The notes below the pieces were generated by a model. It was not told the DNA's origin and did no database searches. It worked only from the letters and a program-made list of their open reading frames with translations. Made by a program: the position numbers and the translations under genes. Shown one piece after another: positions 5,004-44,133 of a stretch of DNA of 44,228 bases. Each line of letters begins with the position of its first letter. The stretch's first letter is position 1. The stretch is from Bacteroidales bacterium (GTDB lineage: Bacteria; Bacteroidota; Bacteroidia; Bacteroidales; JAAYJT01), in assembly GCA_012522795.1 (NCBI GenBank), contig JAAYJT010000077.1, positions 1 to 44,228 of the forward strand. Reading direction: 5' to 3'.

Positions 5004-6302
5004 ATGGGAAGTAAAGAAAAATCAAAATCAAGTCTCAGATCTTTCCCGAGAAATTTCTGGACAGTCATCATTATGGAGTTTTTTGAACGCGGGTCATATT
5101 ATGGTGTTATGTCGGTGCTGTCAGTATATCTGGTTATGAATGTTAACGATGGCGGGCTTGGATTTTCAAAAGAGAGTGTAGGAGTTATCAAAAGCACTAT
5201 CACACCTTTGCTTTATCTCCTTCCGATTTTATCGGGTGCTATTGCCGACAGGTTTGGTTACCGCAAAGTTCTGATGTTTGCTTTTGTGATAATGAGCCTG
5301 GGTTATTTCCTTACCAGTACAGTTACAAGCTATTCCCTTGTTTTTCTGAGCCTTACTCTTATGGCTGTTGGTGCGGGTTTTTTCAAACCAATAATTTCAG
5401 GAACCATTGCCCGCGAAACTGATGAAAGCAACAGTACTCTTGGTTTCGGGATTTTTTACTGGACTATAAATCTTGGTGCTTTTATTTTTCCTCTCATACT
5501 GGTTCCATATCTGAAAGGAATTTCATGGTCGTATATTTTTATAATGGCAGCAGTAGGAACCGGATGGCTCTTAATTCTGAATGTTTTTGTTTATAAGGAG
5601 CCTCCCCGCCCCGAGAGCACAAAATCCATCGTAGAAGTGCTTAAGGGTGTGGTGCTGGTACTTAAGGACTATCGTTTTGTTATTATGATAGTGATATATT
5701 CAATGTTTTGGATACTTTATTTTCAGATGTTCGACACTGTTCTATGGTATCTGAAAGAGCATATTGATATGTCGCCGGTAAATAAAGTTGTAAATAGTTT
5801 TCTTGGAATTTTTGTGAATGAGCCTTCCTGGAAATTCGATGCCGAACATGTAACAGTTATCAATGCCGGAACAATAATCCTGCTTCAGCTTATAATTTCT
5901 AATATAGTAAAAAATACCCGCGCCTTGCCTACAATGATAGCAGGTATTGCACTGGGAACCATAGGAATGGGAATTCTTGCCATTTCAACCCATGCCTGGG
6001 TATTTATGGCGGGGATAATTATTTTCTCAATCGGCGAGATGACAGCTCATCCAAAATTTATTTCTTATGTGGGTTTAATTGCTCCTGCCGATAAAAAAGC
6101 CCTGTATCTTGGCTATTCGTTTTTATATGGAGTGATTGGTAGTGCAATAGGAGGTATTCTTGGCGCAACCATGTATGTATATTTTGTTGACGGATTAAAC
6201 CGTCCGGGATTGTTATGGTTCATTTTCAGCCTGATAGGGGTGGCTACTATTATCGGACTTATATTGTATAATAAATTTCTTGCCCCCCGTAAGGAAATAT
6301 AA
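5004..6302 (+). CDS. POT-family (proton-dependent oligopeptide) MFS transporter
   Basis: A 432-aa inner-membrane protein with about 12 hydrophobic helices. The first helix carries EFFERGSYYG (residues 25-34), which matches the ExxER-x-x-YYG motif of proton-coupled peptide transporters. In that motif the E and R residues take part in proton coupling. GYRKVLMF after helix 2 is the MFS loop motif. The ATG at 5004 is preferred over an in-frame TTG two codons upstream. Uptake of di- and tripeptides is the family role. The protein is slightly short for the family and its central loop is unusual, so the substrate remains uncertain. Confidence 0.85.
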   Translation: MGSKEKSKSSLRSFPRNFWTVIIMEFFERGSYYGVMSVLSVYLVMNVNDGGLGFSKESVGVIKSTITPLLYLLPILSGAIADRFGYRKVLMFAFVIMSLGYFLTSTVTSYSLVFLSLTLMAVGAGFFKPIISGTIARETDESNSTLGFGIFYWTINLGAFIFPLILVPYLKGISWSYIFIMAAVGTGWLLILNVFVYKEPPRPESTKSIVEVLKGVVLVLKDYRFVIMIVIYSMFWILYFQMFDTVLWYLKEHIDMSPVNKVVNSFLGIFVNEPSWKFDAEHVTVINAGTIILLQLIISNIVKNTRALPTMIAGIALGTIGMGILAISTHAWVFMAGIIIFSIGEMTAHPKFISYVGLIAPADKKALYLGYSFLYGVIGSAIGGILGATMYVYFVDGLNRPGLLWFIFSLIGVATIIGLILYNKFLAPRKEI

Positions 6303-6412
6303 AACCTACATTTCAGTGAACAGTTTTTTTATGATCCGGGTACTTTTTAATCTTTATTGGGAATGTACATAATTGAGTGTTCCTATCTTGTTTTATAGGA
6401 TGCAATGCTCTA

Positions 6413-7852
6413 TTATTCAGCAAGCTTTCGTGTAATTCTGAACCCTAATCTTACAATAGCTTCAAAAAGCCCGGGGTTAAGTGTTTCAGGTTTGTCTTCA
6501 GGTGTGTGCAGGTATGTATAACTATTGGTACTGACCATATAAAGCCCAGGTATTCCGGCATTGAAAAATGGTGTAAGATCAGCTCCTCCACCACCCCAGG
6601 ACCTGTCGACGACTAATTTCTCATTATCTGATTTTCGGGCAAGTTCCCATAATTCCGGTGAACTTTTTCCATTACCGATCTGAATACTGTCGCCATGTGC
6701 AATACAATCGAAATTTAACATGGCAATGATGTTTTTATGAGGTTCAGGGAAATTTTCTACAAAATGTCCAGCACCGAGAAGCCCTTGTTCTTCGGACGTA
6801 AATAATACAAATATCAGCGATCGTGAAGGTTTTATTTCTGATAAGCTGAAAGCTCTTGCAATTTCAAGCACTGCAGCAGAGCCTGAGGCATTATCATTAG
6901 CTCCCGGATAAATAGTTCCGCACTGGCTTCCAACATGGTCAAGATGCGCTCCGATAACAATAAATTCATTTTTCCTTTTAGCATCATTACCTTCAATCAT
7001 TCCTATAATGTTAAATGTAGAAGCTTCGGGGTTATATTCGGTTCTTACACTTATATGAGCCTTGGTACCGGTTTCAAATGATATGGGCTGCTGCTTGTTT
7101 TTCAGTTCATTATACAGCGTTTCAAGGTCATTGCCCGATTCGGCAAGTATTTTGTCAGCTAGTTCCCGACTTATCATCAGTTGTAGAAAATCTGCCGGAT
7201 GATCACCTGGGCCATGCAGCACACTGCCTATTACTTCGGGTATTCCGATCCTTTCAAATGGTGCTGATACAAAAATGATAGCTCCGGCACCATGTTCACG
7301 GGCGGCATTGGCTTTTTCGCGCGGTAATGCACCAGGCCAGGAAGTTTCAGGTAATTTCCAGTCCGGATTATTTTTGAAAACCATCACAATCTTTCCTTTC
7401 AGATCAAGTCCAGCAAAATCATCATAACCATATTCAGGCATGCTGATACCAAATCCGGCAAAGACAACCGGAGCAAATAAATCGCCGCTACCGGTAAAAC
7501 CCCTAAAAGTATAATCAATTCCATGCCGTGGCATGATAATCTGACTTCTGAGATGCAGTTCAAAACCACAAGGCTCAGGAATAGCATTGTATTCAACCTT
7601 CATATGCTGATAATATCCATCATCGCCTGCCGGAATAAGACCCAGGTTCTGAAATTGTTCAGTCATATATAATGCAGCCCTTGTAAAACCGGCATGACCG
7701 GGCAATCTACCTGCCATTTCGGCTGAAGTGAGAATCTCAACAGTATGCATCAGTGCTTCGCGACTTATCAAACTGTCAGACAGGGCTGAGACTGGGTTCT
7801 GAAAATTCAGGAAAAGAAAGATAAAAATCAGGATTCTTGTGATATGGTTCAT
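6413..7852 (-). CDS. Secreted M28-family metallopeptidase with PA-domain insertion
   Basis: A 479-aa exported peptidase. Residues 1-23 form a signal peptide. The catalytic domain has all di-zinc ligands of clan MH: His303 (GAHLDHVG), Asp320 (GANDNASG), Glu354/Glu355 (TSEEQG), Asp382 (NFDC) and His449 (YLHTPEDKP). Residues about 130-270 fit a protease-associated (PA) domain inserted before the catalytic domain. Family members release N-terminal amino acids from peptides or split glutamate-containing substrates. The cell location is periplasm or surface; no lipobox or T9SS signal is seen. It converges on the POT transporter gene, which might take up its products (inference). Confidence 0.9.
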   Translation of the reverse strand: MNHITRILIFIFLFLNFQNPVSALSDSLISREALMHTVEILTSAEMAGRLPGHAGFTRAALYMTEQFQNLGLIPAGDDGYYQHMKVEYNAIPEPCGFELHLRSQIIMPRHGIDYTFRGFTGSGDLFAPVVFAGFGISMPEYGYDDFAGLDLKGKIVMVFKNNPDWKLPETSWPGALPREKANAAREHGAGAIIFVSAPFERIGIPEVIGSVLHGPGDHPADFLQLMISRELADKILAESGNDLETLYNELKNKQQPISFETGTKAHISVRTEYNPEASTFNIIGMIEGNDAKRKNEFIVIGAHLDHVGSQCGTIYPGANDNASGSAAVLEIARAFSLSEIKPSRSLIFVLFTSEEQGLLGAGHFVENFPEPHKNIIAMLNFDCIAHGDSIQIGNGKSSPELWELARKSDNEKLVVDRSWGGGGADLTPFFNAGIPGLYMVSTNSYTYLHTPEDKPETLNPGLFEAIVRLGFRITRKLAE

Positions 7853-23766: not shown

Positions 23767-24387
23767 ATGCATCACATAGCTATTGCCGGAAACATAGGTT
23801 CGGGGAAAACTTCCCTTACACAGTTATTATCAAAGCATTTCGGATGGGAAGCTCATTATGAGGATGTAGAATCCAATCCTTATTTACATAGTTTTTATGA
23901 CGACATGCAGCGCTGGTCGTTCAATTTGCAGATTTATTTTCTGAATAGCCGTTTCAGGCAGGTTATAAATATTCGTAACAGTGGTAAAACAGTTATTCAG
24001 GACAGAACAATTTATGAAGATGCCCATATTTTTGCACCTAATCTTCATGCAATGAATCTTATGTCAACACGCGATTTCGATAATTATAGCTCTCTTTTCG
24101 AGCTGATGGGTTCGTTTTTGAAACCACCTGATCTTTTAATTTATCTGAAAGCAAGCGTTCCTACTTTGGTACATCAGATCCAGAAAAGAGGCAGGGATTA
24201 TGAAAATGCTATTCGTCTGGATTATTTAAAATCCCTGAACGAAAGATATGAGCAATGGATTGAATCATATAATATTGGTAAATTGCTGATAGTGGATGTG
24301 GATAAGATCAATTTCATTGAAGATCCTGAAGGATTGGGAACTATCATTAATCGTATCAACGCTGAACTGCACGGACTTTTTGGCTGA
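23767..24387 (+). CDS. Deoxynucleoside kinase (dAdo/dGuo kinase type)
   Basis: A 206-aa dNK-family enzyme that phosphorylates deoxynucleosides for salvage. The P-loop GNIGSGKT is at 8-15. The DRTIYED segment holds the catalytic and substrate-binding acid, and KRGRDYE is the LID arginine region. The family length is complete. The 3' end, with its stop at 24385-24387, lies inside a segment that is duplicated at 31141, where a relic of the last 26 codons remains. Specificity (dA/dG versus broader) cannot be read from sequence. Confidence 0.92.
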   Translation: MHHIAIAGNIGSGKTSLTQLLSKHFGWEAHYEDVESNPYLHSFYDDMQRWSFNLQIYFLNSRFRQVINIRNSGKTVIQDRTIYEDAHIFAPNLHAMNLMSTRDFDNYSSLFELMGSFLKPPDLLIYLKASVPTLVHQIQKRGRDYENAIRLDYLKSLNERYEQWIESYNIGKLLIVDVDKINFIEDPEGLGTIINRINAELHGLFG

Positions 24388-24430
24388 TCATCCTAAAATT
24401 TGATTAGCCTGCATTATAGCCATGATTTCA
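24308..24430. repeat. Island boundary repeat A, left copy (dNK/PPSR junction)
   Basis: About 123 bp aligning without gaps to 31141-31263 with roughly 16 mismatches (~87% identity by eye). It contains the end of the deoxynucleoside kinase gene and, on the minus strand, the last 13 codons plus stop of a PPSR gene. Confidence 0.85.
24388..24430 (-). pseudogene. Relic of the PPSR gene 3' end
   Basis: On the minus strand this reads EIMAIMQANQILG and stop, matching EIMAIMHANQISG and stop at the end of the intact PPSR gene (31222). The homology stops at 24430. It shows that the dNK and PPSR genes once abutted end to end. Confidence 0.8.
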
Positions 24431-24436
24431 TTCCCA

Positions 24437-24535
24437 CCTGTCCATTTTAGTGCGACAGGTTTAGAGTATTCGTTCAACAACTAATTTAATATCAATGTAA
24501 TGACTTTGGTGCTTTAATAAAGTGGACAAGTCAGG
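24437..24535. repeat. 99-bp MITE-like repeat B, left copy
   Basis: A 99-bp element starting CCTGTCCATTTTAGTG and ending AATAAAGTGGACAAGTCAGG, ~84% identical by eye to 31040-31138 in the same orientation. The ends share an inverted TGTCCAyTTTA core, and CCTGTC...GACAGG forms a small hairpin at the left end. No coding capacity. It looks like a MITE or a remnant of an IS end. Confidence 0.7.
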
Positions 24536-24567
24536 AGATTTGCAAAAGTTGCCTGGAATCAGACTTT

Positions 24568-25251
24568 TTATCTCATGTTCATAATAATATTTACCGTACT
24601 AATTACATCAGTAATGTCTATGTTTCCATCACCATTAACATCGGCGTTTTCAAAACAGAAAGGCTGTGGGTTGTCGCCAAGCATATATTTAACTGTTGTT
24701 ATTACATCCATGACATTAACACTTCCATTACAATTTGAATCTCCGCTTGTAAGGGGTATGGATTCAATAATTGAAACCATACCATGAATACAGTCCTCAA
24801 TGCCATTTACACAGTGCGGGCATCCCATAATACAATTTTCAGGTTCTAACATATAATTACCGGTCTGAGTAGGTGTAGTAAGCTTAAACGATATCACTAT
24901 ACCGGTATATCCTAAAAATGTTGCATTAGTTAAACTATAAACTAAAGCCCTGAGAATGTTGGTATCTGGTAATGTATTGGCATAAACATTATGATCAACA
25001 CGTCGCATCGGATTAAGTACGACTGAACCGTCAATATAAGAAAACCCGGATGGTAACGGAATATCAAGCTGAAAAGAGTTCATAATGTCGTTAATTTGCA
25101 TTTCAACATCAATAACTACAGTTGACTGTGGCAACCCAACAGCATCATGAATTTCCAGGATGTTAAGTTCTGGAAGCTGAGCTTTACCCGCAAAAGGGAT
25201 CAATAACAGTGCAAACAGAAGCAATTTTGGGATTTGGGTAATTTTTTTCAT
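24568..25251 (-). CDS. Secreted cohesin-like plus type I dockerin protein (copy 1)
   Basis: A 227-aa protein from the ATG at 25251 (MKKITQIPKLLLFALLL, a signal peptide ending near AGKAQ). An in-frame ATG ten codons upstream would spoil the signal peptide. Residues about 25-150 form a cohesin-like beta domain (VVIDVEMQINDIMNSFQLDI, LPSGFSYIDGS, GIVISFKL). The last 60 residues are a dockerin with two EF-hand-like loops, DSNCNGSVNVMDV and DVNGDGNIDITDV. It has no T9SS sorting domain. It is paralogous to the protein at 29976. Proteins with both partners of the cohesin-dockerin pair could link into chains (inference). Last gene of the island's minus-strand series. Confidence 0.8.
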   Translation of the reverse strand: MKKITQIPKLLLFALLLIPFAGKAQLPELNILEIHDAVGLPQSTVVIDVEMQINDIMNSFQLDIPLPSGFSYIDGSVVLNPMRRVDHNVYANTLPDTNILRALVYSLTNATFLGYTGIVISFKLTTPTQTGNYMLEPENCIMGCPHCVNGIEDCIHGMVSIIESIPLTSGDSNCNGSVNVMDVITTVKYMLGDNPQPFCFENADVNGDGNIDITDVISTVNIIMNMR

Positions 25252-25441
25252 TGTATTTATTTTTTGGCGGTTAATAATCAAATTAGCGTTAAATTTCAGT
25301 AAACCTAATCAAAGATCATCGTAAAATAAAGCTTTTTTGTCAAATTGTTGTTTTAAAAGCAGTGAACTAATTTGCGAACTATGTTTTTATAAATATCATG
25401 TAATAAAAATCAACCGGCATTATCATTATTTCTGATTGAAA

Positions 25442-27055
25442 TTATTGTACCACAAACTTCCCCCTTCCCACTGGATTGCCATCGCTGTAAACCACGGCAA
25501 TATATATTCCCGGTGCCCAGTTTTTTATGTTAGCACTATATTGCTGCTGCCCCCTATGCACTTTTATTTGATGCTGCAATACACCAAGCAGATTAAAACA
25601 CTTTAGCTCAATGTTTTTATGATGCTCCGTGTTTTCAAAGGTAAAGGTTATCTGGTCTTTTGCGGGGTTGGGGTAAATTGTAATTGGAATTGCGCTTATG
25701 CGTGCATAATACTCTTTAGGAGTAGGTATCCAGTCTGTAGATGTTAATACCATACAATCACTCAAATCTATGGTGCCTGATTGAATAGGGTATGGACAAA
25801 GACTATCATAAACGTAGGTTGTAGAATCAAAAGGAACATACTGGAGGTTTTGGTCTATTTTGTAAAGAAATGCCTTTAGAAAACCGTCTGACCCCATTAC
25901 TGGAACTCCTATAACGTAATTAGAATCATAGCTTATAGTTATTTTCGGCACCCACTCACGGCTACCTCTGACAGTATAATCATAAATATTGCCCGAAATA
26001 TCAAAAACCATATCGCCAAACATATTTACACCACCAATACCAAGATGAAGAAGAGATAAAAACGTTGTATCGTTAATTTGATACATCGTCCGGATAGCAT
26101 TATAGTCAATATCTGGATTTATTGAAGAACTCTGAATTTCAGTATAACTTATTTCATTTCCATCAACATCAAAAAACATTATCAAAGAATTATACCAATG
26201 GGGTGTTGGAAGCCAGCGGCTTCCAACACCCATAAGCAGTCTATCATTAATTGGTAGAATATTCCATGCATCGCCAATAATATTTTGTCGAGTACCAAAA
26301 GGCAGAATCCATTTTTCCTCGAAATTTGAATCAATTCCAACATAAAATGCCCTGTGATAAAAAATTGATGGGTTGCTTGGATAAGCATAATAACAACGAC
26401 CTGAGATATAATATTCACCTTTGTAATATGTTATTTTAACTGCCATAGGATCATGAAGCAATGGATATTTATCTGGCGATGCGAACACTTTTTCCCACAG
26501 TAATTCACCGTTATTACTTAATGCTGCAAGATAAATTCTATCCTTAATTTCTGGTAAAACAGGATAAAGATACTGAAGCAAAACAATTATTTCATCCCTC
26601 TCATCAGTTATCAGAATGTCAACGACTATACCTTGATTATATTCACCTTTCTTTAAAATTCTGCACCACTCAGTTTCACCACAAGCATTATATTTTGAAA
26701 TAATTGGACTATCGGAGCCTGCTTTGTATAAAACACCACCGGTATATCGGTTCCCTTCATTATCTGAAGCAACTGCATATGTCTCAATATATCCTGAATT
26801 ATATATAATATAATTTTGTCTCAATAGTTCAAGGTTTATTCCAGTCTTGGCACTCCAACTTCCTAGTCCAAAATTCTGATTCGGATTTATATAATGAGAA
26901 CCCTCCATGAAATATCCTTTATCATAGTATTCAATTAATCCCTCAATCATAACATTTTTACCGGGTAATCCAAAATAAATTCCATTAGGTGTATGTTGAG
27001 CATAGCTTGTTAAAACAAGAAAAAAGCTTATTAATATAAATTGAATGTTTTTCAT
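25442..27055 (-). CDS. T9SS-sorted surface protein, propeller-like
   Basis: A 537-aa exported protein. Residues 1-20 are a signal peptide. The middle has repeating beta-rich segments (for example ISKYNACGETEWCRILKKG and LAALSNNGELLWEKVFAS) like those of beta-propeller proteins in this phylum. The last 80 residues are a type A T9SS sorting domain beginning ITIYPNPAKDQITF and ending GIYIAVVYSDGNPVGRGKF. Expected route: Sec, then the PorT-dependent T9SS to the surface, with tail removal. No catalytic motif is recognised. It lies between the beta-helix protein and cohesin-dockerin copy 1. Confidence 0.82.
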   Translation of the reverse strand: MKNIQFILISFFLVLTSYAQHTPNGIYFGLPGKNVMIEGLIEYYDKGYFMEGSHYINPNQNFGLGSWSAKTGINLELLRQNYIIYNSGYIETYAVASDNEGNRYTGGVLYKAGSDSPIISKYNACGETEWCRILKKGEYNQGIVVDILITDERDEIIVLLQYLYPVLPEIKDRIYLAALSNNGELLWEKVFASPDKYPLLHDPMAVKITYYKGEYYISGRCYYAYPSNPSIFYHRAFYVGIDSNFEEKWILPFGTRQNIIGDAWNILPINDRLLMGVGSRWLPTPHWYNSLIMFFDVDGNEISYTEIQSSSINPDIDYNAIRTMYQINDTTFLSLLHLGIGGVNMFGDMVFDISGNIYDYTVRGSREWVPKITISYDSNYVIGVPVMGSDGFLKAFLYKIDQNLQYVPFDSTTYVYDSLCPYPIQSGTIDLSDCMVLTSTDWIPTPKEYYARISAIPITIYPNPAKDQITFTFENTEHHKNIELKCFNLLGVLQHQIKVHRGQQQYSANIKNWAPGIYIAVVYSDGNPVGRGKFVVQ

Positions 27056-27135
27056 TTCAACAAAAGTTTAAAAAATTGCTTCGCCAATGATGCACCGCTT
27101 AGTGATATATCATCAGCGAAGCAACCCTGACGTTA

Positions 27136-29784
27136 TCAGTCAGTAATTATAAATTTAACACTTTCCATTGTTTTTGTTTGGATTTTCAGGCTGGCGACAT
27201 ACCAGCCGGATTTCCAGTCACGAGTATTAATTATTTGCTGGTTTACAGGTCCGCTTACCTCCATGGTGTGAACCAACCTGCCGGTATCATCCGTAAACTC
27301 AAGCCGACCTTTGGCTTCGGCATCCATAACGTATTCCACAATCAGAAAATCGCGTGCCGGAAGCGGATATACATTCAGGCTTTTCGTGGGCAGGTTTTCA
27401 AGCATTGTTTGGTATGTTGTTTCCATTGCCCTTGATTTCAGTAAATCGGGCAGTAGAATGGGTTCGTTGTAGGTAAGCGCTTGCAATGCCAACAAGGCGT
27501 TCCTGGCATAAACAGCGGCAGGTCCTGTTGATTCGCTTTCGATGTCCAGCAGCATGGAAATATGCTGGCTTTCGGCATTCTGGATTCCCTTTCCTTCCTG
27601 AGCTAAACTTGCCAGTATGTCATATAATATCTGTATTTGCTGGTATTCTGATTGCTGTAAGTTACTTAGGTTTATCTGTGAAGGAATATTGTTTAAAACC
27701 GCAGTTCCCTGGACAGACTGCCCCATTTCAAGGTACATGAAAGCCAGATTATACTTAGACGCCAAACTATTGTCGTTTTCCCATAACCATATAAGGCTGT
27801 CGTTATCATTTTGAAAGATTCTTGCCAGTGAGCTTACCGCAATCGCCTTATCAAGTAGATGGCGTGCCAGTTTTGATTCTATTTTTTCCCTTAATGAAAT
27901 AAAGTTCTTCCCCTGCAAAATCTGTGCTTTCATATAATCCGGCAAAGGAGTCCAGCGTTGATTAAGTTCGTCCATCAATTTTGCTGATTTGGCCGTTTGA
28001 GGATTTGCAACCATAATATCACGAATCATGGCATTTATTAATACATCTTCTTTGTATATTGCATTGCTTACTACAGTATCACTTAGCCAGGGCGATATTG
28101 CCATCAATTCGTCATATAATTCCATGGCTTCGGGTGATGTGCTCATGTACACATCCCAACTAAGTTCATTGGTATTCCCTCCGTCAACCATCAAGGCAAG
28201 CATACCACGGATCTCCTCTTCCTGTTGACTGCTCTCTGCCATCTGCTGCATTAGTTCTTCCTCGTTTCCTCCACCACCGATTGATAGTTTACAGGGACAA
28301 CCTTCGGAAAAAGACCATGGAAAATTTAATAAAACAGATGTAATAGTTACTGTGTTGGCAGTGAAACTTTGCGGGATAACTCTTTGAAATACCTGATCGT
28401 AATTATAAGGTACAAAATAGGTGATATGTTCCCCTTCATTATTGATATCATTGTATGGCACTCCGGTATGATGGTGGAAAAGATTGCCTGCCATAAAGGT
28501 GCTATCGCCCTGCCAGGCGGCTATGCCAAGCCTGCGGTCAGATTCAGATTTAGGAATCAGGATATCAGCCCAGGTATCAGTAAAATCGTTGCAAAGTAGC
28601 TGTAAGCCAATATTTGTGTTGTAATCTTTATTGGTTCCCTGCGCCGAGATACCCTGCTCCAGCCTGATAAAGCGGTTGCGATAAACCTCGTTGGGGTTAG
28701 TTCCTGAATTATTTACAATCAGCCCTATACCTGTGGCACTTGTTCCATTATGTCTGAACTCGTTGTCCTCTACCCAGTATCCGGTACAGCCGTCAAGGTA
28801 CATGCCGTAGCCGCCGTTTTCTTCAAACGGAGTGTTGATAATAAAATCATTTGAGGTAACCCGTGCATTTGTAACTCCACTTAAATAAAGGCTGCGGTAG
28901 TTGTTCTCAAATTCATTCTTAATAACCGATATATAGCTGTTTTGCCCTGCACTCAGCACATAAATGCCGTAGTAAAGGTTTGTGAATTTGTTTGGGTAGT
29001 ATTCAGTAGGCGGGCAGGGAGTTATCAGTGAAGAGCATTTGTTTTTAAGATTTGAATTAAACACATAGATTCCGTTACCGCGGGCTAAAGAGTTAGGTTC
29101 AAGAACATTGCGGTAGTTTTTAAAAGTACAACCGCTGATGTCCTGAATATTGTTAGTAATGAGCTTTATAAAATAGTCAGGAACAACAGTATTAAGAACC
29201 GTAGCTTTGGTTTCGAAAGTGCTGTGTCTGATATAGCTTATATTAGTATTGTTATAAGGCAGCATTTCAATGGCAGTTTGGTTATTGCTGAAAATGGCAT
29301 TTTCAACCTGAACAATACCACCGGTTTGTGTATAATTGAACCTCTCTTCTGAAAATGTTTTAATTCCAGCACGAATAGCAGTTTCAGCATTTGCGATTGT
29401 TCCTCCGTTAATCACCTGCACCCACCCCTGGTTAGATGTTGGGGACTGGTTAAGGTCAGGATTTCCGAGAACTTCAATACCGAGCCATGGATCAAGACAT
29501 TCAGTAGTTATGGTTCCGCCGTCAACCACAAGTTTGCCACCAGGTTCAACGGTTATTTTGGTACCGGCATCCATGTAAAGCGTGGAGGTGATGGTTAGTA
29601 CGGTGCCAGGATTCATCCTGATGTTTTTGGTTTGTGCGCGGGGCAAGTCCCACACTTCTGAATCACGGATAATGGTTTCATTCTCGTTACCAAATCCAAC
29701 GGGTGGAAATAAAAGAACAAGCAAGAATACAATGACAATTCGCCGGCTCGCATATGAAATAAATCGTTGTTTTTGTTTAATCAT
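27136..29784 (-). CDS. T9SS-sorted right-handed beta-helix protein
   Basis: An 882-aa exported protein with a signal peptide at 1-32 (VIVFLLVLLFPPVGFG). Residues about 60-420 are right-handed parallel beta-helix repeats with NxF and GI-type rungs (YRHSTFETKATV, IKNEFENNYRSLYLSG, YWVEDNEFRHNGT). Residues about 510-790 are helical and low in motifs. The last 80 are a type A T9SS sorting domain starting LNVYPLPARDFLIVEY and ending WYVASLKIQT. Beta-helix folds in secreted proteins often bind or cleave polysaccharides, but no lyase or hydrolase active site is evident. Adhesion or glycan binding is the best guess. Confidence 0.82.
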   Translation of the reverse strand: MIKQKQRFISYASRRIVIVFLLVLLFPPVGFGNENETIIRDSEVWDLPRAQTKNIRMNPGTVLTITSTLYMDAGTKITVEPGGKLVVDGGTITTECLDPWLGIEVLGNPDLNQSPTSNQGWVQVINGGTIANAETAIRAGIKTFSEERFNYTQTGGIVQVENAIFSNNQTAIEMLPYNNTNISYIRHSTFETKATVLNTVVPDYFIKLITNNIQDISGCTFKNYRNVLEPNSLARGNGIYVFNSNLKNKCSSLITPCPPTEYYPNKFTNLYYGIYVLSAGQNSYISVIKNEFENNYRSLYLSGVTNARVTSNDFIINTPFEENGGYGMYLDGCTGYWVEDNEFRHNGTSATGIGLIVNNSGTNPNEVYRNRFIRLEQGISAQGTNKDYNTNIGLQLLCNDFTDTWADILIPKSESDRRLGIAAWQGDSTFMAGNLFHHHTGVPYNDINNEGEHITYFVPYNYDQVFQRVIPQSFTANTVTITSVLLNFPWSFSEGCPCKLSIGGGGNEEELMQQMAESSQQEEEIRGMLALMVDGGNTNELSWDVYMSTSPEAMELYDELMAISPWLSDTVVSNAIYKEDVLINAMIRDIMVANPQTAKSAKLMDELNQRWTPLPDYMKAQILQGKNFISLREKIESKLARHLLDKAIAVSSLARIFQNDNDSLIWLWENDNSLASKYNLAFMYLEMGQSVQGTAVLNNIPSQINLSNLQQSEYQQIQILYDILASLAQEGKGIQNAESQHISMLLDIESESTGPAAVYARNALLALQALTYNEPILLPDLLKSRAMETTYQTMLENLPTKSLNVYPLPARDFLIVEYVMDAEAKGRLEFTDDTGRLVHTMEVSGPVNQQIINTRDWKSGWYVASLKIQTKTMESVKFIITD

Positions 29785-29975
29785 GTTTATATTATGGTCA
29801 TAAAGTTAATGAATAAAAAGTTATGTGTTGAATTATTTTTATCATTTAAGGATTTTCTGTACTAAAAAAGTATCATTAAATTTTCACCGCATCTATCATT
29901 AATCCAACAGTTTGCGCATTTGGGCAGGCGATAACTGAGGGACAAAAAGTAGCGGACATAAGGAAGATTTCTGCT

Positions 29976-30653
29976 TCAATTCAAAATAATATCAATTGTA
30001 TCCACCACATCTAATACATTGATAATTCCATCACCATTAACATCGGCGTTTTCAAAACAGAAAGGCTGTGGGTTGTCGCCAAGCATATATTTAACTGTTG
30101 TTATTACATCCATGACATTAACGCTTCCATTACAATTTGAATCCCCGCTTGTAAGAGGCATGGATTCAATTATTGAAACTATGCCATGAATACAGTCCTC
30201 AAGGGGATCTGAACGATACGAGCCTGCCATACTACAATATACAGGTTCTAACATATAATTACCGGTCTGAGATGGTGTATTAAGCTTAAACGACACCACT
30301 ATACCGATATTTCCTAAAAATGCTGCCCCTGTTTCACTTACAGCAACAACTTCGAATATGTTAGTACCTGGTATTGTATTGGATCCAACAATATGATCTA
30401 CCTGTCGTAAGGGATTAAGTACGGCTGAACCGGCAATATATGAAAAACCGGATGGTAACGGAACATCTAACAGAAAGGCAGTTATAGGTTCTTTAATTTG
30501 CATTTCAACATCAATAACCACAGTTGACTGTGGCAACCCAACAGCATCATGAATTTTCAGGATGTTAGTTTCAGGAAGCTGAGCTTTACCCGTAAAAGGG
30601 ATCAATAACAGTGCAAACAGAATTGTTTTTGGGATTTGGATATTTTTTTTCAT
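29976..30653 (-). CDS. Secreted cohesin-like plus type I dockerin protein (copy 2)
   Basis: A 225-aa paralogue of the protein at 24568. Start is the ATG at 30653 (MKKNIQIPKTILFALLL, signal peptide), not the upstream in-frame ATG at 30716. The cohesin-like domain has diverged (GSAVLNPLRQVDHIVG), while the first dockerin loop and linker (GDSNCNGSVNVMDVITTVKY) are identical to copy 1. The DNA over about 95 nt around that linker is also identical. The last helix differs, with GIINVLDVVDTIDIILN at the end. No T9SS tail. First gene of the island's minus-strand set. Same-nucleotide identity suggests recent duplication or gene conversion. Confidence 0.8.
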   Translation of the reverse strand: MKKNIQIPKTILFALLLIPFTGKAQLPETNILKIHDAVGLPQSTVVIDVEMQIKEPITAFLLDVPLPSGFSYIAGSAVLNPLRQVDHIVGSNTIPGTNIFEVVAVSETGAAFLGNIGIVVSFKLNTPSQTGNYMLEPVYCSMAGSYRSDPLEDCIHGIVSIIESMPLTSGDSNCNGSVNVMDVITTVKYMLGDNPQPFCFENADVNGDGIINVLDVVDTIDIILN

Positions 30654-31039
30654 AAAAATTTTATTTATAAGATTTAAGAATAATAATGATAAAAAAGTTG
30701 GGTACGGGCAATTCATTTTATTTTATGGCGGATAGATTTTATCATACCCTATAACATCAAATAAATAAATAGCAAAATTATTTTTAAATAGTAGGAAATA
30801 ATGTGTGATCGTGCCTGTGTGCCAACGTACTTGCGTATTTGCGTAACTGCGTAACATAGGTTAAAATTTGGGTTACTAAGATAATACAAAAAATTGAGAA
30901 GCAATCAAAATAGCCCCGATTTTTAGGAGGTAATTTTACTTTTCAATATACTTTATTAACAAAACAGGTTTTAAGATTAGTCTGTTATTTCAGTATTTTA
31001 AAAAATAGGTGTTTATCCCGGAAATACTGTACTACTTAA
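30654..31039. other. Intergenic region upstream of cohesin-dockerin copy 2
   Basis: About 385 nt without a gene. It contains a -7-like TAATTTTG on the minus strand at 30773-30780, about 120 nt before copy 2. It also holds a small tandem of TTGCGTA/CTGCGTA words at 30829-30856. Confidence 0.5.
30773..30780 (-). promoter_or_regulatory. -7 element for the cohesin-dockerin island
   Basis: The minus strand reads TAATTTTG, matching TAnnTTTG, about 120 nt upstream of copy 2. No good -33 TTG is seen. This would be the only candidate driving the four-gene minus-strand series from its first gene. Confidence 0.3.
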
Positions 31040-31138
31040 CCTGTCCATCTTAGTGCGACAGATTTGAATTTTTTATCCGACAACTAATTGAATATCAATG
31101 TAATATTTTGGGTGCTTTAATAAAGCGGACAAGTCAGG
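31040..31138. repeat. 99-bp MITE-like repeat B, right copy
   Basis: Same length and orientation as 24437-24535, with about 16 differences. It starts CCTGTCCATCTTAGTG and ends TAAAGCGGACAAGTCAGG, two bases before boundary repeat A begins. Confidence 0.7.
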
Positions 31139-31140
31139 AA

Positions 31141-31221
31141 ATTAATTTCATTGAATACACTGAAGGATTGGGAGCTATTGTTAATCACATTAACGCTGAA
31201 CTGCACCGACTTTTTGGATGA
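31141..31221 (+). pseudogene. Relic of the deoxynucleoside kinase 3' end (in boundary repeat A, right copy)
   Basis: Reads INFIEYTEGLGAIVNHIN, then AELHRLFG and stop, matching the last 26 codons of the intact kinase ending at 24387. The whole repeat runs on to about 31263, into the intact PPSR gene. The stop of this relic directly abuts the PPSR stop on the other strand, preserving the original convergent arrangement. Confidence 0.85.
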
Positions 31222-32034
31222 TTATCCTGAAATTTGATTAGCATGCATTATAGCCATAATTTCACTTGCAATTTCTTCAATGGGTTTATTTGTAACCTTT
31301 ATAATTGGCCATAATGGCTGTCGCTGAAAAAAAGAGTTGGCATAGTTTAGTTCTCTTTTAACATAATCGAGCCCGGCATAATTTTCAGGATCAATACCCA
31401 GATGATGCTGCCTTGCCTGCCGAAGCGAGGAAAGATTATATGCGTAATTAGTGAGACAGAAAACTTTTTCGGGAGATATATTAAATAATTGTTCGGGAGG
31501 ATCAATATTCAGTATAATCGGAACATTTGCCACAAGCCAGCCTTTAAAAGCAAAATAAATACTTAAAGGGGTTTTAAAGGTTCTTGAAACACCCAGTAAT
31601 ATAATTTCAGCTTTATATAGCTCATCGGGTCGTTGTCCGTCGTCGTGCTGAAAAGCAAATTGCATGGCATCAATGCGTTTAAAATATTCAGCATTTATTT
31701 TGTTAAAAAGCCCCGGTTCCTCTGTTGGCGAGTGCATTAATTTTTCAGAAAGCCTTGCAAGAAGAGGTCCCATCAGGTCAATGGTTTCAACATTATGATT
31801 TCTGCCGGCTGTAATCATGAAATTTCGTAAATCATGAGTAACAATCGTATGCACAATGAAAGCATTATTGTCGGCAGCTTCTTTTACAGCCTCTTCAATT
31901 TCATGCTTATGTCTCACTTCTTTTTTGGTTTCAATTTCAACTTCATGAGAAGGGAACTGAAGAAGAGCTGCTCTTAATGCCTGAGTAGCAGTTCGCCCTG
32001 TACCATCAGAAACTATGTAGATTATTGACTTCAT
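31222..32034 (-). CDS. PEP synthase/PPDK regulatory kinase-pyrophosphorylase (PPSR, DUF299)
   Basis: A 270-aa bifunctional regulator. Family members phosphorylate a Thr next to the catalytic His of PEP synthase or pyruvate phosphate dikinase using ADP, and reverse this with Pi to give PPi. Visible features are IVSDGTGRTATQAL at the N-terminus, HTIVTHDLRN, DLMGPLL and the P-loop-like GVSRTFKTPLSIY, where the family usually has GVSRTSKTP. It is complete. A -7 element TATCTTTG on the minus strand (32114-32121) lies about 80 nt upstream. Target enzyme is not in the window; PPDK is plausible given the PPi-type PFK. Confidence 0.92.
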   Translation of the reverse strand: MKSIIYIVSDGTGRTATQALRAALLQFPSHEVEIETKKEVRHKHEIEEAVKEAADNNAFIVHTIVTHDLRNFMITAGRNHNVETIDLMGPLLARLSEKLMHSPTEEPGLFNKINAEYFKRIDAMQFAFQHDDGQRPDELYKAEIILLGVSRTFKTPLSIYFAFKGWLVANVPIILNIDPPEQLFNISPEKVFCLTNYAYNLSSLRQARQHHLGIDPENYAGLDYVKRELNYANSFFQRQPLWPIIKVTNKPIEEIASEIMAIMHANQISG

Positions 32035-43894: not shown

Positions 43895-43906
43895 CGCCTT
43901 GAAATT

Positions 43907-43982
43907 GGGAGTCTAACTCAGTTGGTTCATATCATCCCGACTTTAGGTCGGGAGGGTCACAGGAAAACTGAATTGAAATATT
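43907..43982 (+). repeat. Degenerate tRNA-Val-derived unit 1 (76 bp)
   Basis: Shares the 5' part (GGGAG..TA.CTCAGTTGGTTCA) and GGGTCACAGG with the true tRNA-Val at 44059. The anticodon arm is replaced by the hairpin TCCCGACTTTAGGTCGGGA, and the T-arm and 3' acceptor strand are lost. 74 of 76 positions match unit 2. Confidence 0.85.
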
Positions 43983-44058
43983 GAGAGCCTAACTCAGTTG
44001 GTTCATATCATCCCGACTTTAGGTCGGGAGGGTCACAGGAAAACTGAATTGAAATATT
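43983..44058 (+). repeat. Degenerate tRNA-Val-derived unit 2 (76 bp)
   Basis: The second copy of the same unit, starting exactly 76 nt after the first and 76 nt before the real tRNA. It carries the same TCCCGAC-TTTAG-GTCGGGA hairpin and the spacer GAATTGAAATATT that also precedes the real tRNA. It is not a functional tRNA because the T-arm and acceptor 3' strand are missing. Confidence 0.85.
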
Positions 44059-44133
44059 GGGAGCATAGCTCAGTTGGTTCAGAGCATCTGCCTTACAAGC
44101 AGAGGGTCACAGGTTCGAATCCTGTTGCTCCCA
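44059..44133 (+). tRNA. tRNA-Val (anticodon TAC)
   Basis: A 75-nt complete cloverleaf. The acceptor GGGAGCA pairs with TGCTCCC, the D-arm is GCTC...GAGC, the anticodon stem TCTGC/GCAGA closes loop CTTACAA with TAC, and the T-arm has AGGTTCGAATCCT. A73 is present and CCA is not encoded. It is the third unit in phase with two degenerate copies. Confidence 0.95.

Follow-up and report, generated by a model that had tools for sequence, protein, structure and literature searches.

Gene cargo lying between two short non-autonomous repeats is a described arrangement, as in the TIME-COMPs and the MITE-flanked blaPER-1 region of Acinetobacter johnsonii (PMC13367494, PMC4133298, PMC3934969), and such MITE-bounded composites are, in the available part of the published account, mobilized by transposases of autonomous relatives (PMC13367494). 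In the IS1202 family insertion is accompanied by target duplications of 16–28 bp, according to the portion of the source at hand (PMC10132070). Cohesins or dockerins are mentioned for rumen Bacteroidetes in an extract of one report (PMC6071333), and a cellulosome-like complex has been outlined in Candidatus Stygibacter (Cloacimonadota), for which the available text describes dockerins on C25 and S8 peptidases and on GH18, together with a large scaffold carrying tandem cohesins and a C-terminal surface-attachment domain (PMC8542988). A Bacteroidales peptidase scaffold was not met in the extracts at hand of the literature on dockerins with gingipains and type IX secretion, and may exist in print.

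The window analysed here, a stretch of 44,228 nucleotides from an uncultured Bacteroidales bacterium, contains an island of four genes that likewise lies between two short, apparently non-autonomous repeats, but for which no transposase was recovered and whose flanking duplication is ~123 bp. As in the IS1202 family, to judge from the excerpt available, an unusually long target duplication accompanies the insertion, although at ~123 bp against 16–28 bp, and with no related transposase shown here. The genome resembles Candidatus Stygibacter, so far as the accessible text of that report goes, in having dockerins on C25/S8 peptidases and GH18 and a large scaffold with tandem cohesins; it differs in being a Bacteroidales-type genome in which small cohesin-dockerin proteins are encoded in dispersed cassettes. 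The island is a true insertion and not a new class of element. Gene names were tested with profile searches, and the features of the locus are as follows.

23767–24387, plus strand: dNK (deoxynucleoside kinase), intact, 206 aa (PF01712, E 9.6e-57)
24307–24430, unstranded: A1, left copy of the duplicated target, comprising the dNK end and the last 13 PPSR codons
24436–24540, plus strand: X1, a MITE-like dispersed repeat at the left island edge
24568–25281, minus strand: D1, predicted cohesin fold plus dockerin (PF00404), likely start ATG 25248
25442–27055, minus strand: T, 537 aa, with a T9SS sorting domain (PF18962, TIGR04183)
27136–29784, minus strand: B, an 882-aa beta-helix protein with a T9SS sorting domain (PF13229, PF18962), with relatives on contigs C59, C56 and C65
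29976–30653, minus strand: D2, a paralogue of D1, readable as an ORF from 30716, likely start ATG 30653
30826–30998, unstranded: P, a block upstream of D2, also present on C56, C58, C59 and C33
31039–31143, plus strand: X2, the second X copy, at the right island edge
31141–31264, unstranded: A2, right copy of the duplicated target, comprising the apparently decayed last 26 dNK codons and the PPSR end
31222–32034, minus strand: PPSR (PEP synthase regulatory kinase/pyrophosphorylase), intact, 270 aa (PF03618, E 4.7e-85; NF003742)

The original prediction, that the ends of dNK and PPSR each occur twice in copies about 87% identical, was borne out: a direct repeat of 124 bp, A, aligns 24307–24430 with 31141–31264 without gaps at 87% identity (blastn E 2e-37), and the two gene ends meet stop to stop within it. 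At the left junction intact dNK stops at 24387, after which come the final 13 codons of PPSR and its stop, while at the right junction 26 dNK codons (stop included) adjoin intact PPSR. Nested flush inside A at both ends is X (24436–24540 against 31039–31143, 105 bp, 84%, direct), with a few bases separating A1 from X1 and with X2 overlapping the start of A2. Two copies of one terminal element thus bound the cargo in the same orientation, on the overall plan A-X-cargo-X-A, which resembles a composite transposon with a very long target duplication. The 8-mer ATTTCATT is found at both ends of A1 (24311–24318 and 24425–24432) and adjoins the island on both sides, with 3 bases intervening at the left. 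At its right end A2 has AATTTCACTT instead, one base different. The four genes between the junction copies all lie on the minus strand, and in the five gaps around them no reading frame stays open for more than 55 aa, leaving no space for a recombinase, in agreement with the first reading of the sequence. No Rfam match was found in 24200–31400 at E 0.1. A separate, overlapping direct repeat (~116 bp, 92%, offset 74) occupies 43899–44088, close to the window end.

The empty site was tested in related genomes. A PPSR search at E 1e-20 gave matches in 9/60 genomes, that of the window included. In both same-genus genomes found, G001 and G002, the order GH3-dNK-PPSR is unbroken and dNK and PPSR are convergent; their dNK orthologues are 205 aa (87% identical) and 206 aa (90% identical), respectively. 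The dNK query had no match in PPSR flanks of up to 1.5 kb in the other six PPSR-bearing genomes. Since dNK/PPSR is uninterrupted in 2/2 congeners, the island is an insertion, and it is well supported that the four-gene block truly entered a formerly stop-to-stop pair of housekeeping genes. This had been proposed from the window alone, with the uninterrupted junction in relatives named as the place to look, and the comparison upholds it.

The insertion is not recent, as had also been suggested, the copies of A differing at 16/124 sites. Eleven of the differences fall in the dNK part. Six of these can be polarized, the two congeners sharing one base that is also present in one copy of A, and in 5/6 the change lies in the right-hand stub (four at first or second codon position). 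The stub looks like a decayed, dead copy of the host's own sequence, which would make the event old and disfavours the other origin first entertained, import from a diverged relative. X1 and X2 differ at 17/105 sites, a divergence indistinguishable from that of A (Fisher p 0.57), so that one duplication event could have produced both pairs. By raw counts X1 and X2 are mutually nearest among 7 X copies; the tree of X copies is weak, and there the two are not exclusive sisters. The dS between D1 and D2 is 0.26, whereas the corrected divergence of A is 0.14, and the D gene pair may therefore predate the insertion.

X is dispersed in its own genome. A DNA search listed near-full copies on contigs C70, C43, C33 and C97 and a partial copy on C93, and a further copy on C40, unlisted in that search, was found by sequence pattern. 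By eye, the termini of X look like imperfect inverted repeats, and one X end resembles stubs, apparently insertion sequence ends, at which contigs C49, C79, C96 and C20 break off, although the body of an autonomous element behind these stubs was not recovered in the genome. We infer that X is a non-autonomous relative (MITE) of an insertion sequence; as the island has no transposase and the autonomous element was not recovered, the mobility of X is argued from its dispersal and from the similarity of its ends. On C70 (locus L068, 7752–8950) a transposase gene in two frames, presumably of IS4 type, has an X copy directly downstream, and by eye its 3′ end resembles the 3′ flank of D1 beside X1, so X may reach beyond 105 bp. 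No short target duplication was readable by eye at the other X copies, and at the island the duplicated stretch is ~123 bp instead of a short one of fixed length. A search of G001 and G002 for X, run with no positive control and of the type that missed the C40 copy, gave no match. The intergenic place of X and its partly palindromic sequence had raised the idea of an integron attC-like site; an integron cassette array was rejected by eye because the attC core motifs were not seen and no integrase lies inside. X copies adjoin unrelated genes as well.

The island cargo is one member of a cassette family found on other contigs. Its outer genes, D1 and D2, are paralogous (629 bp at 86% DNA identity; proteins 73% identical), and the transcription order D2-B-T-D1 matches the D-B-T-D of C59, while D-B-T spans C56 from contig end to contig end. 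The B proteins of C59 and C56 are only 32% and 30% identical to that of the window, and the family is therefore old. On C40 the 3′ end of a D gene, its 3′ flank and X are joined in the same way as D1 and X1. The layouts are not alike throughout, since P lies upstream of D2 in the island, whereas on C59 and C56 it separates D from B. The relative of T on C59 lacks a T9SS domain and ends in a weak dockerin-like match that stays below cut-off (E 0.022). The ends of C59 (L076) are identical over 83 bp (1–83 and 6258–6340), as would be expected of a tandem D-B-T-D array or a circle; the same 83 bp also equal the reverse complement of the head of C78 (L075). A cassette with adaptor-like cohesin-dockerin genes has thus spread within one genome, and one empty site is still readable in its congeners. 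At the contig ends of C33 (L070) and C58 (L152), P runs into a repeated 8-mer, TTACGCAG, of which the window has a short, degenerate run ahead of D2; this might be a promoter repeat of variable length.

How the cassette arrived is best explained, in our view and with moderate confidence, by a single old insertion of an X-bounded block, the target duplication being made in repair. The block would have arrived either as a composite with X on both sides or as a circle holding a single X, whose fusion into the site duplicated X. Least sure is the source of the ~123 bp duplication, which might have come from repair of a widely staggered break or, alternatively, from illegitimate joining at sites that lie ~123 bp apart on two sister copies. 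It would have been kept because, at a stop-to-stop junction without spare bases, it leaves both genes whole, which suggests how an insertion can survive at such a place: the duplicated junction spares both genes. Counting against this account, the longest target duplication met in the literature, in the part of the source available, is the 16–28 bp of IS1202 (PMC10132070).

The best rival, to which we give a rather low probability, divides the history into two events: slippage between two ATTTCATT copies first made a tandem duplication of the junction, and an X-bounded cassette later entered the middle ATTTCATT with an 8-bp target duplication. Familiar processes suffice for this, and it would account for the presence of ATTTCATT at both ends of A1 and beside the island on both sides, bar the 3 bases at the left; a match of at least 8 in such paired windows arose in only 153/20000 random placements. 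Against it, the insertion must strike one point among ~120 dispensable bases, and, since A2 ends at the right in AATTTCACTT, the 8-mer at the right of A1 may have arisen by a later substitution from a shorter ancestral match.

Less probable again is a history in which a solo X entered first, duplicating A, and a circle with one X and the cassette later recombined between X copies. That another cassette is X-edged (C40) and that the C59 ends are identical over 83 bp, as a tandem array or circle would give, would fit such a course, but the long duplication is left unexplained by it and the solo-X state is absent from both congeners.

A second insertion of this kind may exist, and it would speak for the account preferred here. 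C33 carries, in order, a gene which we take to be thiolase-like, X, a segment Z′, an X-like end (by eye), P and the contig end; C40 carries a D gene end, X, a segment Z and a gene assumed to be FAD-oxidase-like. Z lies directly upstream of the C40 oxidase gene, and elsewhere in the genome it recurs almost in full once, as the Z′ of C33 (108 bp, 91%; 13/112 sites differing), with otherwise just a 25-bp scrap listed. The X copies beside Z and Z′ differ at 31/110 sites, more than Z and Z′ themselves (p 0.002), and therefore only Z seems duplicated. If the contigs face each other, C33 and C40 may represent a second X-edged insertion on the plan A-X-cargo-X-A, with a duplicated target of ~110 bp. 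Counting against this, the two contigs are unjoined in the assembly, and the model does not account for the X lying exactly at the outer edge of Z′ on C33. In G002 the 1.5 kb preceding the orthologue of the C40 gene contain no thiolase; in G001 the contig starts 388 bp ahead of the orthologue. On C58, where P follows a chromosomal ORF, presumably AsnRS-like, the adjoining flank recurs elsewhere in the genome only as scraps of 24–34 bp. When 421,941 bp of the genome (the window and a further 377,713 bp) were compared with themselves, many repeats came up, but by eye none outside the island looked like a duplicated gene end around cargo, with L168, L071 and L086 examined closely; the comparison missed the C33/C40 case because the two sides lie on two contigs.

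Duplication of ~110–125 bp of target far exceeds usual transposase staggers. Its recurrence would point to an insertion route not seen described, yet that X-bounded cassettes move by such a route, duplicating targets of this length regularly (A ~123, Z ~110), is considered quite doubtful. Least likely of all, and highly improbable, is integration of a circle carrying the dNK/PPSR junction by one homologous crossover, the mechanism of the original prediction: it yields A-cargo-A, but the nested X, unseen at first reading, makes the structure target-X-cargo-X-target and would oblige the circle to hold A flanked by X on both sides (X-A-X), for which there is no known source, and the stub resembles decayed host sequence, not a working donor allele.

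The cargo encodes what are predicted to be surface or secreted proteins. The ‘cohesin’ label first given to some of them is supported by predicted fold, though not by Pfam. Neither D1 nor D2 matched the Pfam cohesin family (PF00963) at E 0.001, and a D profile searched against solved structures found dockerin chains in the PDB (best E 1.9e-5) and no cohesin domain by sequence. The label was instead recovered when the fold was tested on a predicted structure. The D1 model (7 sequences) has a mean pLDDT of 67, with ten-residue blocks at 80–95 over residues 31–160 save one at 67, and its ten best PDB matches are cohesin or cohesin-dockerin entries (6kgd_A, E 4.5e-9, TM 0.76 by target), supporting a cohesin beta-sandwich for D1. 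Another dockerin protein, L181, scores 23.1 bits with PF00963 against a cut-off of 24.1. The dockerin itself is clear (type I, PF00404: D1 35.4 bits, D2 33.0 bits, cut-off 22.9), and with a dockerin beside a predicted cohesin fold D1 is probably an adaptor in a cohesin-dockerin system. D1 and D2 would bridge a dockerin-tagged protein to a cohesin-bearing scaffold. Between D1 and D2 the cohesin half shows dN 0.20 and dS 0.24, and the dockerin half dN 0.10 and dS 0.42, so that the binding half seems the faster-changing.

In the examined stretches of the genome (G000) at least 52 ORFs encode dockerins, and 16 ORFs together carry 30 cohesin-like domains, a single C85 ORF having ten of them. A Pfam scan (E thresholds 0.05 to 0.0001) of 47/52 dockerin ORFs, the remainder being four D-type proteins and one 84-aa frame, found peptidase domains on 13 (C25 four, S8 four, M14 three, M28 one, C10 one) and other enzyme-type domains on four (PAD, GH18, PNGase F C-terminal and CotH, one each); no cellulase family was seen among the 47. 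Several peptidase-bearing dockerin ORFs also have T9SS sorting domains. The peptidase and scaffold loci lie on C85, C47, C13, C92, C2, C49 and C50 (L078, L079, L159, L160, L172, L168, L174, L155, L163).

Matches to D1 at E 1e-12 occur in 17/295 genomes of the order, that of the window included. Within the genus, the D1 query matched 74 times in G000 (E 0.001), 9 times in G001 and not at all in G002 (E 1e-5), and the system therefore seems to be gained or lost quickly; the island offers a means of studying how cohesin-dockerin systems expand in this group. On C92 (L168), an 88-bp intergenic repeat (85%) stands before and after two dockerin genes (429–515 and 7020–7107), and is possibly a shared regulatory site.
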